Shown here in pieces: positions 29,381 through 35,916 of a DNA stretch of 36,103 nucleotides. The stretch comes from a virus. Below the pieces are notes generated by a model that was given only the letters and a program-made list of their open reading frames with translations, ran no database searches and was not told the DNA's origin. The stretch covers positions 1 to 36,103 of IMG/VR virus record IMGVR_UViG_3300006917_000074; one strand, written 5' to 3'. Made by a program: the position numbers and the translations under genes. Numbering within the stretch: the first letter of the stretch is position 1; each line of letters starts with the position of its first letter.

Positions 29381-30645
29381 CTTGTTTTTGGGGTATCAGT
29401 AACGAACCAAACTGCACCTCTTTTTTCTCCCTTGACATCGACCAGCCCTCGTTTCTTAAGACGCTGTGTAGACTTCTTGACGACCTCGTCATTAAGTCCT
29501 GTAATCTCAATAATTTGACCCCTAGTGAGCCTCCCGTTTCCGCGGAGTGCTTCTTCAATAATTGAGTCAGTTGAGTTGATTTCGACCACGTCTTCTTTCT
29601 TCAAAGTGACTGGCCCGTAATGGTCTCCTATTTCGCCAATTTCCCACTTCTGGCGGTAGCAGAACGGCTCTACCTTACCCATGTTCGACTTTTTAGCTAT
29701 TGTGGCCTTAATCAGCTTCCCATCCTCTTCAGACTCAAGGGTAAGCCTCCATGCTACACGTGTGAGTGCCCTCCAAAAAACTGTCCCGTAATAGGCTTTA
29801 TCGGCTGTTTTAGCCAACGTATCCTTAGGTTCATGGTGAATAATGAGCTTTGTGGCAGGTATATTCTCCAGTGCGTTGAAGAAATCGACAACTTTTTGCT
29901 CATCATTAGGAGAGCCACCAGCAGCGTTTGACCCTGCGTCAATCACAATTAGGTCAAAACCACCCTTAACGACCATCTTGGCTATAACCTCAGATAAATC
30001 GCGTATAGAACCGTCTGGCTTGTACCAGCCCACGTTAGAAGCCAATGTCTCTTTCGAGATACCCATACCTGCGGCTATTTCAAAAAGACGTTTATTAAAG
30101 ACACTCGGGCTATCTTCATAGTCAAGGAATAATGTCTTTAATGCTGTCTCAGATGAATACCCCATAAATGGGTATCCAGTCGCCAAAGAAGCGGCCATTC
30201 TCAAGCAAAAATACGATTTACCAACCTCAGAGTCACCAAACACCATATTATTTGCTCCTTTTTGGAGAAAGGGAAACAAGAGGAACTGGTCTTCTTCACA
30301 TGGCACCTCATTGAAGTTGCGTACCACTTGAGAGTCATTGAACTTCTCAATAACGGCATTAAACGCCTTGTTTATGATAATCGCCCATTTAATCTTATCT
30401 TCGTAAGCGTTCTGTAGAGAGCGCCGGAAACCCTCAACCGCCGAATGAGAGTTAATATCAAGCCTTTGGCAGTAGGATTCAGATACCCCATCCTTTGTGG
30501 ACTGAAGAAACACCTGCACTAACGCTGTAAAAGACTGGTGCGCCCTACTTATCTCTGAGAAAGAGAAATACACCCTCCCTTCTGGGTAAGGCACCTTAAC
30601 AACAAAATCTCGACCCTCAACAACAACCTGTAGTTCATCACTCAT
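29365..30645 (-). CDS. RepA-like AAA/RecA-fold ATPase (putative replicative helicase)
   Basis: This 426-residue protein starts at the second ATG (30645), which has AGGA 7 bases upstream. The N-terminal 130 residues are a phage-specific domain. The RecA-fold core has Walker A GDSEVGKS (137-144), FLDYED (173-178), Walker B LIVIDAG (232-238) and IIHHEPK (about 268-274), as in hexameric RepA/AAA_25 ATPases. The last 70 residues (SIIEEALRGNGRLTRGQIIE; VVKKSTQRLKKRGLVDV) form a winged helix. It is the probable replicative helicase or initiator; there is no DnaB-type or polymerase gene in the window. The 3' end runs into the TTATGGGGAACG repeats. Confidence 0.75.
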   Translation of the reverse strand: MSDELQVVVEGRDFVVKVPYPEGRVYFSFSEISRAHQSFTALVQVFLQSTKDGVSESYCQRLDINSHSAVEGFRRSLQNAYEDKIKWAIIINKAFNAVIEKFNDSQVVRNFNEVPCEEDQFLLFPFLQKGANNMVFGDSEVGKSYFCLRMAASLATGYPFMGYSSETALKTLFLDYEDSPSVFNKRLFEIAAGMGISKETLASNVGWYKPDGSIRDLSEVIAKMVVKGGFDLIVIDAGSNAAGGSPNDEQKVVDFFNALENIPATKLIIHHEPKDTLAKTADKAYYGTVFWRALTRVAWRLTLESEEDGKLIKATIAKKSNMGKVEPFCYRQKWEIGEIGDHYGPVTLKKEDVVEINSTDSIIEEALRGNGRLTRGQIIEITGLNDEVVKKSTQRLKKRGLVDVKGEKRGAVWFVTDTPKTSYGER

Positions 30646-30656
30646 ATTCACTTCCT

Positions 30657-30692
30657 AAAACCCCCACACCTCGCAGGAAATGCGGGGGTTTT
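30657..30692 (-). terminator. Bidirectional terminator between the RecA-like and RepA-like genes
   Basis: AAAACCCCCACA (30657-30668) pairs with TGCGGGGGTTTT (30681-30692) with one mismatch, giving a GC-rich stem flanked by A and T runs, so it can work in both directions. On the leftward transcript it sits just 5' of the RepA-like gene, where it would end or attenuate transcription coming from the RecA-like gene. Confidence 0.7.
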
Positions 30693-30737
30693 AATAAATG
30701 AATAAGTCCTGCGAGACATACAGGAACAATACATCAA

Positions 30738-30759
30738 TATCGAAAAAAATTTTTCGATA
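30738..30759. promoter_or_regulatory. Perfect dyad with 10-bp arms
   Basis: TATCGAAAAA (30738-30747) and TTTTTCGATA (30750-30759) form a perfect inverted repeat with a 2-base centre. It lies in the leader of the RepA-like gene and is a candidate operator. No T-run or G/C core makes it a terminator. Confidence 0.5.
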
Positions 30760-30780
30760 GTTGGGGATAACCATCAATAG

Positions 30781-30798
30781 AACAAAATATAATTTGTT
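30781..30798. promoter_or_regulatory. Dyad AACAAA-ATATAA-TTTGTT with TATAAT inside
   Basis: AACAAA (30781-30786) and TTTGTT (30793-30798) form 6-bp arms around ATATAA; TATAAT is readable at 30788-30793. It may be an operator overlapping a -10 element, but no matching -35 is clear on either strand. Confidence 0.35.
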
Positions 30799-30803
30799 GA
30801 GAT

Positions 30804-30828
30804 GCCGCCTAAATCAAGTCGAGGCGGT
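30804..30828. terminator. Hairpin matching the late terminator in inverted orientation
   Basis: CCGCCT (30805-30810) pairs with AGGCGG (30822-30827), loop 11 bases. GCCGCCTAAATCAAGT (30804-30819) is the exact reverse complement of 28727-28742. Only a short T-run (TTT) follows on the plus strand, so its efficiency as a terminator is doubtful. Confidence 0.5.
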
Positions 30829-30892
30829 TTCTCGGCGTAGGCCCAAAAAAAGATTTATTAAAATCCGTACGCATGTATAGCGTACCATGAAT

Positions 30893-31894: not shown

Positions 31895-31929
31895 CATTTG
31901 CAGTTATCCCCACACCATTTGTTGACATT
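31887..31929. promoter_or_regulatory. Divergent operator-like inverted repeat
   Basis: AATGTCAACA (31887-31896) and TGTTGACATT (31920-31929) are perfect 10-bp inverted arms, 33 bases centre to centre, about three helical turns. Each arm contains the -35 box of one of two divergent promoters. A GTTATCCCCA motif (31903-31912) lies between them. The adjacent ribbon-helix-helix protein is the likely ligand. Confidence 0.6.
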
Positions 31930-31949
31930 TGTTACTGACCACATATAAT
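31922..31949 (+). promoter_or_regulatory. Rightward sigma70-type promoter
   Basis: TTGACA (31922-31927), a 16-base spacer and TATAAT (31944-31949) are both perfect consensus hexamers. Initiation near 31956 gives a 24-base leader to the ATG at 31980. It would drive the rightward early block of small proteins, the SSB-like and the PcfJ-like genes. Confidence 0.8.
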
Positions 31950-31979: not shown

Positions 31980-32192
31980 ATGAACTTAAATATGAGTCTT
32001 GATAATAGTGAATTAAGGGTGGTCGAGGACAGTTACTCAGACTTTGAGTATTTCCTCGAAAATAAACTGTGGGATGCGGCAGCATCAACGGCTAAAGCGA
32101 TGCGAGAATTTTCTGAGGCTCACGCCGAAGAACTCTACGCAAAATTAGCTGAAGCGATGCGGAAGGACTTAGCAGATAAAAAGCAAATATAA
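31980..32192 (+). CDS. Small early protein of unknown function
   Basis: This 70-residue acidic, helical protein reads MNLNMSLDNSELRVVEDSYS, then YFLENKLWDAAASTAKAMRE and an Ala/Glu-rich helix to the end. An internal ATG (residue 5) is possible. It is the first gene behind the perfect promoter, so it should be made early and strongly. No family is recognised. Confidence 0.55.
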   Translation: MNLNMSLDNSELRVVEDSYSDFEYFLENKLWDAAASTAKAMREFSEAHAEELYAKLAEAMRKDLADKKQI

Positions 32193-32193
32193 T

Positions 32194-32346
32194 ATGCCAC
32201 CAGAACAAGAATTTCCATCGGTTCAAATCGAAAAAAATGTGCGTTATATCCTCAGAATTAAAGGATTATACATCGGTCAATTTACCTCTGATGAATTGAG
32301 GACAATAAAGGATTTTATGACTTCTTACGAAGTCCCACAAGAATAA
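32194..32346 (+). CDS. Small early protein, 50 aa
   Basis: ATG at 32194, 1 base after the previous stop, opens MPPEQEFPSVQIEKNVRYIL followed by RIKGLYIGQFTSDELRTIKDF and MTSYEVPQE. An alternating strand-strand-helix pattern suggests a tiny compact domain. It is tightly coupled to the upstream gene. No family is recognised. Confidence 0.5.
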   Translation: MPPEQEFPSVQIEKNVRYILRIKGLYIGQFTSDELRTIKDFMTSYEVPQE

Positions 32347-32374: not shown

Positions 32375-32516
32375 GGTGGTGGAGGGACTGCTGGGTGCAA
32401 GGCGCAATAGTACCAAGGCCGGAGAGAAAGGTACTACCTCCCTATATTCGTCACGGAATATGGCATGGGAATAAGGTGTCGTGACTGCTTCTCTGCCCAG
32501 CCGCCCCTTCATCACC
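32375..32516 (+). ncRNA. Candidate structured RNA with closing stem and pseudoknot
   Basis: Positions 32375-32396 pair with 32495-32516 in a stem of 22 positions, 20 paired (three as G-U). Inside are a 7-bp hairpin (TAGTACC 32408-32414 with GGTACTA 32430-32436) and a 6-bp hairpin (ATATTC 32444-32449 with GAATAT 32456-32461). The six-base loop GTCACG (32450-32455) of the second is the exact complement of CGTGAC (32480-32485), which makes an H-type pseudoknot possible. No gene on the plus strand explains this gap. It ends 24 bases before the zinc-ribbon gene, so it may be a riboswitch-like leader or a separate small RNA. Confidence 0.5.
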
Positions 32517-32540: not shown

Positions 32541-32675
32541 ATGAGTACAACAAGAGAAGACTTTATTGAAAAAGAAAAATTTAGCAACTGCTGCGGAGCA
32601 GCCATGTATGAACTTGGCGACTGCTACCTTTGCTGTGATTGCAAGGAATACTGCGAACCAGTAGACGAAGAATAA
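32541..32675 (+). CDS. Small zinc-ribbon protein
   Basis: This 44-residue protein, MSTTREDFIEKEKFSNCCGA then AMYELGDCYLCCDCKEYCEP, has two Cys clusters (NCCGA and CYLCCDCKEYC) around a short strand turn, the pattern of small phage and bacterial zinc ribbons of the form CCGA...C..C...C. Function is unknown; many act in protein or nucleic-acid contacts. The start at 32541 is chosen because the upstream part of the open frame is occupied by the structured RNA. It ends with an acidic tail. Confidence 0.6.
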   Translation: MSTTREDFIEKEKFSNCCGAAMYELGDCYLCCDCKEYCEPVDEE

Positions 32676-32695
32676 ATTAACAGCACATACCTCTC

Positions 32696-32731
32696 CACCT
32701 CTCAAGCTCGTTATGTGCGGCTTGGGAGGTG
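32696..32731 (+). promoter_or_regulatory. 12-bp hairpin with an alternative pairing partner
   Basis: Positions 32696-32707 (CACCTCTCAAGC) pair along their full length with 32720-32731 (GCTTGGGAGGTG), one pair being G-U. The loop carries TATGTGC (32712-32718), which can instead pair with GCACATA at 32683-32689. The two pairings cannot easily coexist (only one base between the loop strand and the stem), so they may be alternative states. There is no T-run. It lies 22 bases before the next ATG. Confidence 0.45.
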
Positions 32732-33221: not shown

Positions 33222-33962
33222 ATGAATCGAAACGAAATTAAATCAAAAATGGGTATTGGTACTGCAACGGGAAATTTTTATTATCTTGATAAGATAACGA
33301 TGAGCGGCGATGATGGCTCGTTTAAGTTTGCAGACCTGACGACTGAACGTCAGAAGGGTGAAAGGGTTGTCATAAAAGATATTGGAAAGACCGTAGAGGG
33401 CGTTATTCTCAAGATGCGGTGGCAGCTTTCGAGGTGGGATGAGCCGAGTAGCATATTTTATAATTCTACGGAATATGACGATAAAAACACAGACCAGGTA
33501 ATGATATTCCCACCCAAGAAGAAAGGCTCAGTATTAGAAATGAAGGAGGCGTTCAAACTATCAACGCAGCGTGTTATTTACTTCTACGTCCCATCCATGG
33601 AGAAAATCGTGCGTCTTATAGTGAAGAGCTCTGCTTTGAGTGGGGACAAAAACCCAAAGGGGGAATTTGGTTTGTTTGAGCACATGGATAATTTCTCTAA
33701 TGACGACATTCTCCCTCTCGAAGCGATAACGAAATGTGTTGGTGTTCATAGAAAGGGGACAAACAAGGACGGCTCCCTCAACCCCCGCAAAGACCATTAC
33801 GCAATGACCTTTTCAAGAGGAGCTACATTAACAGAAAGTGAGGTTGAAAAGATGGTCGCCATGCTCAATGAAGTGGACGAAAAAACAAGCAGACAGGCTC
33901 CTGCACAAAACATCACCAACGAAACTGAAGATGAAATAAACCCAGACGACATCCCTTTCTAA
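33222..33962 (+). CDS. Putative single-stranded DNA-binding protein
   Basis: This is a 246-residue protein. The body is beta-rich with aromatic and basic residues (GVILKMRWQLSRWDEPSSIF; STQRVIYFYVPSMEKIVRLI), and the C-terminus is a flexible acidic tail ending EDEINPDDIPF. The DDIPF tip is the partner-binding end of bacterial SSB proteins and of several phage SSBs. The body does not show a recognisable bacterial OB-fold signature, so the call rests on the tail and on the neighbouring RecA-like and RepA-like genes. If correct, it coats single strands in phage replication and recombination. Confidence 0.55.
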   Translation: MNRNEIKSKMGIGTATGNFYYLDKITMSGDDGSFKFADLTTERQKGERVVIKDIGKTVEGVILKMRWQLSRWDEPSSIFYNSTEYDDKNTDQVMIFPPKKKGSVLEMKEAFKLSTQRVIYFYVPSMEKIVRLIVKSSALSGDKNPKGEFGLFEHMDNFSNDDILPLEAITKCVGVHRKGTNKDGSLNPRKDHYAMTFSRGATLTESEVEKMVAMLNEVDEKTSRQAPAQNITNETEDEINPDDIPF

Positions 33963-34162: not shown

Positions 34163-34285
34163 ATGAAAACAAAAATAAGAGTTACAACAGGACTACGTAA
34201 ATACGCAACTTTAAATAGTGGCAAGAACGACTACCGCGCAGCGAGATTGGAAATTATGGAGAAATTTAACAGAACAACCGTATGA
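34163..34285 (+). CDS. Small basic protein, 40 aa
   Basis: ATG at 34163 opens MKTKIRVTTGLRKYATLNSG, then KNDYRAARLEIMEKFNRTTV, ending at TGA 34283-34285, which overlaps the next start as ATGA. It is basic, with a strand followed by a helix. It fills the gap before the PcfJ-like gene exactly. No family is recognised. Confidence 0.5.
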   Translation: MKTKIRVTTGLRKYATLNSGKNDYRAARLEIMEKFNRTTV

Positions 34286-35505
34286 ACAAATACAAAACAT
34301 ATGTACAGGAATTCGGTTCGGCTGAAAGGGTTTCACTGTGGATTGATACAGTTCTCACGAAACATCTTAAAACCAACCAAGAAAAACAAGATGAGATAGA
34401 GCACATAATCGACTATCTATCCGCAACCGACAAAGACATTAAAGGAATGTCTTATGAGGACGCAAAGAAAAACGCAGAGCTGTGGAGCAAGGCTCAGCAG
34501 AAAAAAGGAAGAGGTATCAAAGAATCTGTAACAGACACGGAAGTTGTGCTTGACTTTGGCGATGGTTTCAAGATTGTCAAGTTAATCGGAGAGAACGCAT
34601 ACAAGAGAGAGGGTGCGATTATGGGACATTGCGTCGCAAGCTACTATGGTAAAGGAAAAGAAATATTCTCTTTGCGAGACGCGAAAAACATACCGCATTG
34701 CACGATAGAAAAAGGACAGCAAATTAAAGGCCGTGGAAATGGTGATGTTGTTGGGGAATATGTTGGGTATATAGTCAGATTCTTAGAATCAATTGGAATG
34801 ACCGTTGGAGACAATGAAATGAAGCACTTAGGCTACTTCAACGCAGAAAAATTGAAAGCAGAACTGCACAAGGATACAAAGTACTTTAATCAAAAGTACT
34901 TGCCATTAGGGGCTACTCTTATCGGAAAAGATGGAAAAGAGTTTTTCTCCTTTGATTTGTTGGACTATAAACCGTTAGTAAGTGAGAAAGACGGAATCCT
35001 CAAGCTCAACTTTGAGCTACCATCATTCATCAAGCTCTCATTTGAGCACCTATGGTCACAAATTAAAACAAGCGCAACGAACGCAAGCGTTGGGGACTAC
35101 GCAACGAACGCAAGCAGTGGGAACTGCGCAACGAACGCAAGCAGTGGGTACGGCGCAACGAACGCAAGCATTGGGAACTACGCAACGAACGCAAGCAGTG
35201 GGTACGGCGCAACGAACGCAAGCAGTGGGAACGGCGCAAAGAACGCAAGCAGTGGGTACGGCGCAACGAACGCAAGCAGTGGGAACGGCGCAACGAACGA
35301 AATGGCTACAAATTCTATATCAGTGGATGCAGGAGACGGAGGAAAGGTAAAGGGCAAGGTAGGGTCATGGTTCTGCCTTTCAGAATGGAGTGAGGATGGG
35401 AGAACACCTCTTTGTGTGAAGGCAGCAAAAATAGACGGAATTCTTGTCAAAGAAGACACATGGTACACATTAAAGAATGGAGAGTTTGTCATTGTAAATG
35501 ATTAA
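34282..35505 (+). CDS. PcfJ-like protein with nonapeptide repeats
   Basis: This is a 407-residue protein. Residues about 95-160 carry the PcfJ-like pattern: GAIMGHCVASYYGKGKEIFS (111-130), SLRDAKNIPHCTIE and QIKGRGN (147-153), with His116 and Cys117 in MGHC. PcfJ-type proteins occur on conjugative elements and phages and have no well-established function. Residues 265-336 are eight copies of a nine-residue repeat (consensus ATNASSGNG), followed by a small beta domain (GSWFCLSEWSEDGRTPLCVK). The repeat may form a beta-solenoid-like spacer. It is the largest gene of the rightward early block. Confidence 0.65.
   Translation: MNKYKTYVQEFGSAERVSLWIDTVLTKHLKTNQEKQDEIEHIIDYLSATDKDIKGMSYEDAKKNAELWSKAQQKKGRGIKESVTDTEVVLDFGDGFKIVKLIGENAYKREGAIMGHCVASYYGKGKEIFSLRDAKNIPHCTIEKGQQIKGRGNGDVVGEYVGYIVRFLESIGMTVGDNEMKHLGYFNAEKLKAELHKDTKYFNQKYLPLGATLIGKDGKEFFSFDLLDYKPLVSEKDGILKLNFELPSFIKLSFEHLWSQIKTSATNASVGDYATNASSGNCATNASSGYGATNASIGNYATNASSGYGATNASSGNGAKNASSGYGATNASSGNGATNEMATNSISVDAGDGGKVKGKVGSWFCLSEWSEDGRTPLCVKAAKIDGILVKEDTWYTLKNGEFVIVND
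35074..35289 (+). repeat. Eight 27-bp in-frame tandem repeats
   Basis: GCAACGAACGCAAGCAGTGG plus seven more bases is repeated eight times with few changes (one unit has AAG in place of ACG; two units have GTT or ATT for AGT). Each unit encodes ATNASSG followed by NG, YG, NY or similar. The near-identity of the DNA shows recent expansion by slippage or unequal recombination, so copy number probably varies between strains. Confidence 0.9.
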
Positions 35506-35752: not shown

Positions 35753-35916
35753 CTAACCAATAGATAACAATATGATTACAATACTAGGCTTATCACTAGC
35801 AGTGTCACTAATACTGGCAAGTGCAAGTTTACTTCTCTTATCGGTCAGTTTTTTCATGTCTGCGTTAAAAGATAGAAGAAAAGATAGATTATAACTAACC
35901 AATAGATAACAATATG
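35753..35916 (+). repeat. 22-bp direct repeat around two ATG codons
   Basis: The 22 bases at 35753-35774 (CTAACCAATAGATAACAA and then TATG) recur exactly at 35895-35916. The first copy ends in the ATG of the 40-residue membrane protein. The second ends in an ATG followed at once by TAG, so no protein is made there. The repeat looks like a duplicated translation-initiation or regulatory cassette. Confidence 0.75.
35772..35894 (+). CDS. Small single-span membrane protein, 40 aa
   Basis: MITILGLSLAVSLILASASL then LLLSVSFFMSALKDRRKDRL ends at TAA 35892-35894. One hydrophobic segment of about 27 residues is followed by a basic tail, so the C-terminus should be cytoplasmic. Function unknown; small membrane proteins of this kind occur in phage early regions. 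The start lies inside the 22-bp repeat. Confidence 0.5.
   Translation: MITILGLSLAVSLILASASLLLLSVSFFMSALKDRRKDRL

Follow-up and report, generated by a model that had tools for sequence, protein, structure and literature searches.

A candidate RNA with two nested pseudoknots in a presumed early operon of a phage

The putR RNA of phage HK022 is a folded nascent RNA of ~70 nt which, lying ~270 nt downstream of the PR start site, suppresses termination, and put RNA consists of two stem-loops of conserved sequence (PMC9378689). Large pseudoknotted non-coding RNAs are also found in phages, namely ROOL and GOLLD, whose function is unknown (PMC12286853), and an autoregulatory mRNA pseudoknot has been described for T4-type gene 32 (PMC535899).

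Here we describe a 142-nt candidate structured RNA from a linear virus sequence of 36,103 nt, hereafter the window, i.e., the whole stretch of DNA that was analysed (Table 1). Like HK022 putL and putR, it would be a folded nascent RNA in an early operon behind one of two early promoters, an arrangement that needs no expression platform, and its place downstream of the early promoter is that of a put-type RNA. However, it does not have the ~70 nt and two stem-loops of put, being a closing stem with two nested knots, whereas PMC9378689 mentions no pseudoknot for HK022 put. The distances differ as well, with ~420 nt from the promoter here against ~270 nt from the start site for putR, and no antitermination target is seen here. 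The likeness to putR is one of position, not of structure; sequence and structure matching to put/nut was covered by Rfam.

In T7-type phages, the early mRNAs carry RNase III processing stems without an enclosed pseudoknotted core; like the element, they place a long duplex between cistrons of an early transcript, but here a pseudoknotted core is enclosed. The knot of T2 gene 32 has a 1-nt first loop, a 0-1-nt second loop and a long third loop, proportions resembled by knot B of the element. What the element has in common with T4-type gene 32 is an H-type pseudoknot in the mRNA of phage replication genes, but here two knots are nested in a closing stem, neither at an mRNA 5' end nor beside a ribosome-binding site. 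As with ROOL and GOLLD, the candidate is a pseudoknotted non-coding phage RNA, although these greatly exceed it in length (many GOLLD >800 nt), often occur close to tRNA islands and have been defined through covariation (PMC12286853), whereas the window has no tRNA or Rfam match.

If real, the element would be a defined 142-nt object with a fold that chemical probing could quickly test. To our knowledge, almost no RNA regulation has been described in phages of uncultured hosts, to which the element, if real, would add an unclassified pseudoknotted RNA.

Table 1. Coordinates in the window of the candidate RNA, its parts, and the neighbouring promoters and genes
Feature	Position	Strand	Remarks
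Divergent promoter	31894-31867	-	11/12 consensus matches
Sigma-70-type promoter TTGACA-16-TATAAT	31922-31949	+	12/12 consensus matches; presumed early promoter of the RNA's operon
70-aa ORF, operon gene 1	31980-32192	+	From ORF list; no Pfam, PHROGs or NCBIfam match
50-aa ORF, operon gene 2	32194-32346	+	Stop 28 nt 5' of the RNA; no Pfam, PHROGs or NCBIfam match
Candidate structured RNA	32375-32516	+	142 nt; closing stem around two nested pseudoknots
P1 5' arm	32375-32396	+	20/22 pairs with 32495-32516
Hairpin A	32408-32436	+	7-bp stem TAGTACC/GGTACTA, 15-nt loop
Pseudoknot A 5' strand, AGAGAA in loop of hairpin A	32423-32428	+	Exact complement of TTCTCT
Hairpin B	32442-32463	+	8-bp stem CTATATTC/GAATATGG, 6-nt loop GTCACG
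Pseudoknot B 5' strand, loop GTCACG	32450-32455	+	Exact complement of CGTGAC
Pseudoknot B 3' strand, CGTGAC	32480-32485	+	Pairs with loop of hairpin B
Pseudoknot A 3' strand, TTCTCT	32489-32494	+	Immediately 5' of P1 3' arm
P1 3' arm	32495-32516	+	Pairs with 32375-32396
44-aa Cys-rich zinc-ribbon-like ORF	32541-32675	+	3' of the RNA; A-rich leader without Shine-Dalgarno; no Pfam, PHROGs or NCBIfam match

Architecture of the element and the role of chance

As read from its sequence, the whole element is a closing stem (P1) with two nested H-type pseudoknots. The initial annotation had described the long closing stem, two internal hairpins and an exact complement between the loop GTCACG and a downstream CGTGAC, all of which were recovered; a recount of P1 gave 17 Watson-Crick and three G-U pairs, with mismatches at 32387/32504 (A-C) and 32389/32502 (T-C). 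Its account of the pseudoknot was correct for this knot, B, but incomplete, having overlooked the second knot formed by AGAGAA and TTCTCT. The 3' strand of that second knot, A, adjoins the closing stem, so that stem and knot can stack, and the loop lengths would allow both knots provided that loop B is opened at its closing C-G pair. The element is present as a single copy in the window, and its G+C content is 56% compared with 38-42% in the flanking genes.

That this pairing arose by chance in a GC-rich non-coding gap is quite unlikely. Some figures do favour chance, since a 20/22 stem is expected ~0.35 times in a shuffled 36-kb strand and RNA folding of the whole gap gives a z of only -1.7. 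Within shuffles of the 194-nt gap, however, the same stem arose in 4 of 3000, and when the inner 98 nt were shuffled 4000 times, a single hairpin-loop knot was obtained 196 times but two nested loop-to-downstream knots not once; here stem and both knots occur in one short gap. The full descriptor (stem plus two nested knots), framed with the element already seen so that the chance figures flatter it, was run on both strands of loci totalling 2.85 Mb, both related and other, with the window itself (L001) included, and ranked the element second; the only higher score fell where a GTTCCC-like sequence is repeated (L073). Shuffles and descriptor ranking thus agree with the earlier opinion that such nested pairing was improbable by chance. 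Scanning for H-type knots whose helices have 7 bp was uninformative, as shuffles already give 4-12 per strand.

Folding energy is less distinctive. On the + strand, the element has a minimum free energy of -58.0 (z -3.0; 1 of 200 shuffles), which is only moderately unusual for a nested fold, and the case therefore rests on the architecture. The minimum-energy nested fold lacks hairpin A, whose pair probabilities are ~0.1, and in its place pairs GGAGAG with the region of TTCTCT. If the strands that form the knots are kept unpaired, the energy is -54.0 kcal/mol before the knot helices are added, compared with -59.0 for the nested fold; as free duplexes, the knot helices contribute -4.9 and -7.2, which makes the knotted and nested folds comparable in energy. 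The pairing itself is there to be read and the shuffles demonstrate its improbability; that the element is transcribed and folds in the proposed form is inferred. Overall, we consider it likely that the element is a real structured RNA.

An RNA of the + strand is favoured by the RNA energies (z -3.0 against -1.8 for the - strand) and by the G-U pairs, as P1 has 20/22 pairs on the + strand and 18/22 on the -, the three G-U counting on the + strand only. These results also bear on a DNA element, e.g., an origin, a primosome site or a site of recombination, where inverted repeats that interleave would work on single-stranded DNA. Such a site would be well placed, ~0.5 kb away from both the divergent early promoters and a local change in GC skew, with replication genes close by, but the skew change coincides with the divergence of transcription, the stem relies on G-U pairs that favour + strand RNA, and DNA folding is unremarkable on either strand (z -1.2 and -0.7). 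A DNA-level structure was rejected on these non-significant z values, and we regard the DNA reading as very unlikely.

Operon context and proposed function

The element is co-directional with a packed operon and lies ~0.42 kb (about 420 nt) downstream of its perfect promoter. The operon runs 70-aa ORF, 50-aa ORF, RNA, 44-aa ORF, a strong hairpin (32696-32731), 54-aa ORF, 101-aa ORF, 246-aa ORF and then more ORFs. Up to the 246-aa ORF, its genes follow one another almost without a break, save for two structured gaps flanking the 44-aa ORF. Judged by gene content and place, the operon would be an early one. One of its ORFs (33222-33962), which had no Pfam, PHROGs or NCBIfam match, might encode a single-stranded DNA-binding protein, a guess from its position and C-terminal DDIPF tail. 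The window encodes GroEL, terminase, RecA-like and AAA proteins, and its tail-fibre-like proteins bear GIGTTSPYLKLSV-type repeats, which we take to be associated with Parcubacteria, a weak guess at the host.

We give even weight, for and against, to the proposal that the element is a cis-acting + strand intercistronic RNA of the phage early operon, acting on the transcription or processing of its own mRNA. Transcription from the promoter at 31922-31949 would yield an mRNA carrying nt 32375-32516, which would fold locally into the 22-position closing stem and the two nested H-type pseudoknots. Put/nut-like antitermination, by analogy with HK022, is the leading mechanism within this proposal, albeit a tentative one, in which the folded nascent RNA would modify RNA polymerase for the remaining operon; processing or other cis roles would account for the rest. 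The antitermination mechanism is weakened by the lack of an apparent target, as the operon shows no convincing terminator between the element and the end of the record. If it is true, control of an early operon by RNA alone would carry the put idea over to an architecture that is new.

Next most likely after antitermination, and almost as simple a fit to the anatomy, is excision in the long stem. Cutting there would release a small, compact RNA and leave the following gene with an unstructured leader. In a separate reading, the early mRNA would give rise by excision to a small RNA with a trans-acting or structural role, its ends brought together by the closing stem, which a double-strand-specific nuclease, e.g., RNase III, would cut. 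The near-perfect 22-position stem that encloses the whole fold, the lack of an expression platform for the next gene and the precedents of ROOL and GOLLD (PMC12286853) speak for such an RNA. However, the element has neither promoter nor terminator of its own and the collections searched hold no homologue, and we consider a trans-acting or structural product unlikely.

The initial annotation had also suggested a riboswitch-like leader of the zinc-ribbon gene, which found no support. The stem stops 24 nt before the ATG, and the element sits inside the operon after two genes, not at the 5' end of the transcript. There is also no expression platform, since no T-tract terminator follows the element and no Shine-Dalgarno sequence is masked, which lowers both the riboswitch and the autoregulatory-leader readings. 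A riboswitch that masks a Shine-Dalgarno sequence was rejected. In its wider form, a metabolite- or protein-binding leader controlling translation of the 44-aa zinc-ribbon-like gene, whether as a riboswitch or by T4 gene 32-like autoregulation, draws on the position of the element directly 5' of that gene and on the possible single-stranded DNA-binding protein gene in the same operon. Pseudoknots are common in mRNA leaders that bind metabolites or proteins. It is nevertheless decidedly unlikely given the intercistronic position, the lack of a terminator/antiterminator pair and the lack of a Shine-Dalgarno sequence to mask, a lack shared by most genes of this phage.

Returning to the cis-acting RNA and its possible release, we tentatively suggest that the element represents a new class of phage early-operon RNA, in which a closing stem with two nested H-type pseudoknots would either modify RNA polymerase or be set free as a stable RNA, the phage having several other strong candidate pseudoknots between its genes.

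Search for relatives and other structured gaps

No match to Rfam 15 was found in the window at the gathering threshold, which led us to reject a known Rfam class, and the best hit of a permissive Rfam search over 461 nt was a chance snoRNA fragment (E 0.68). A tRNA or tmRNA was rejected as ARAGORN returned 0 genes in the window. Type III toxin-antitoxin RNAs consist of pseudoknotted repeats in tandem, with a ToxN-like toxin gene downstream; this class was rejected for an element in single copy followed by a 44-aa Cys-rich ORF without a family match. The earlier description of a non-coding pseudoknotted candidate without a nameable class is thus upheld in that it matches no Rfam family, and the element, which falls in no known class, is probably a genuine regulatory or processed RNA of a kind not named before.

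Blastn-type searches found no homologues in phages or plasmids. With neighbouring proteins as queries, the 246-aa ORF and the RecA-like protein had no relatives among viral contigs, the AAA protein matched only distant Roseobacter phages, the PcfJ-like protein matched a single phage contig and TerL recovered 80 related viral contigs per scan. The best of these relatives (L006) has an identical TerL and stops short of the RNA, and the others share ≤64% identity; among the TerL relatives, tblastn of the early genes around the RNA found no copy except for the PcfJ-like N-terminus in one (L134). A covariance model (R1), weak because it was built from one sequence, returned no match from 89 loci, 50 viral records or 6 genomes, and gave only short chance matches in 27 pattern-hit loci. 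Exact patterns (hairpin A; loop B with its partner) gave zero matches or matches without the remaining structure. By DNA, protein neighbours, covariance model and structural descriptor, there was no homologue in the collections searched.

Several other gaps are strongly folded; those in related phages have sequences unrelated to the element. The hairpin between the 44-aa and 54-aa genes (32683-32731, + strand) has a z of -5.2, and its loop TATGTGC is complementary to an upstream GCACATA. On the - strand, the leader of the AAA (RepA-like) gene (30630-30720) has a very strong fold (z -6.5). Here CTCGCAGGA/TCCTGCGAG interleaves with TAAAACCCCC/GGGGGTTTTA, and this possible H-type pseudoknot lies directly 5' of AGGA and ATG; the whole gap at 30652-30892 has a folding z of -10. 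Related phages also have intergenic gaps with strong inverted repeats that interleave and may form pseudoknots, at 1269-1575 of L219 (G015), where an apparent intrinsic terminator follows, and at 6445-6720 of L109. A min-helix score of 24 was reached in six gap strands from four gaps, that at 30652-30892 of the window included, against 0 in shuffles.

Further repeats were observed in the window. An exact 21-nt repeat, TAACCAATAGATAACAATATG, occurs at 35754-35774 and 35896-35916 (0 expected by chance) and is apparently a repeated translation-start leader or a piece of a promoter. The regions at 34282-35505 of the window and 2376-3887 of L134 each combine a PcfJ-like N-terminus, with 48-49% identity between the two, and, after it, short-period repeats, ATNASSGNG in the window and the wholly different STVAGGDY in L134.
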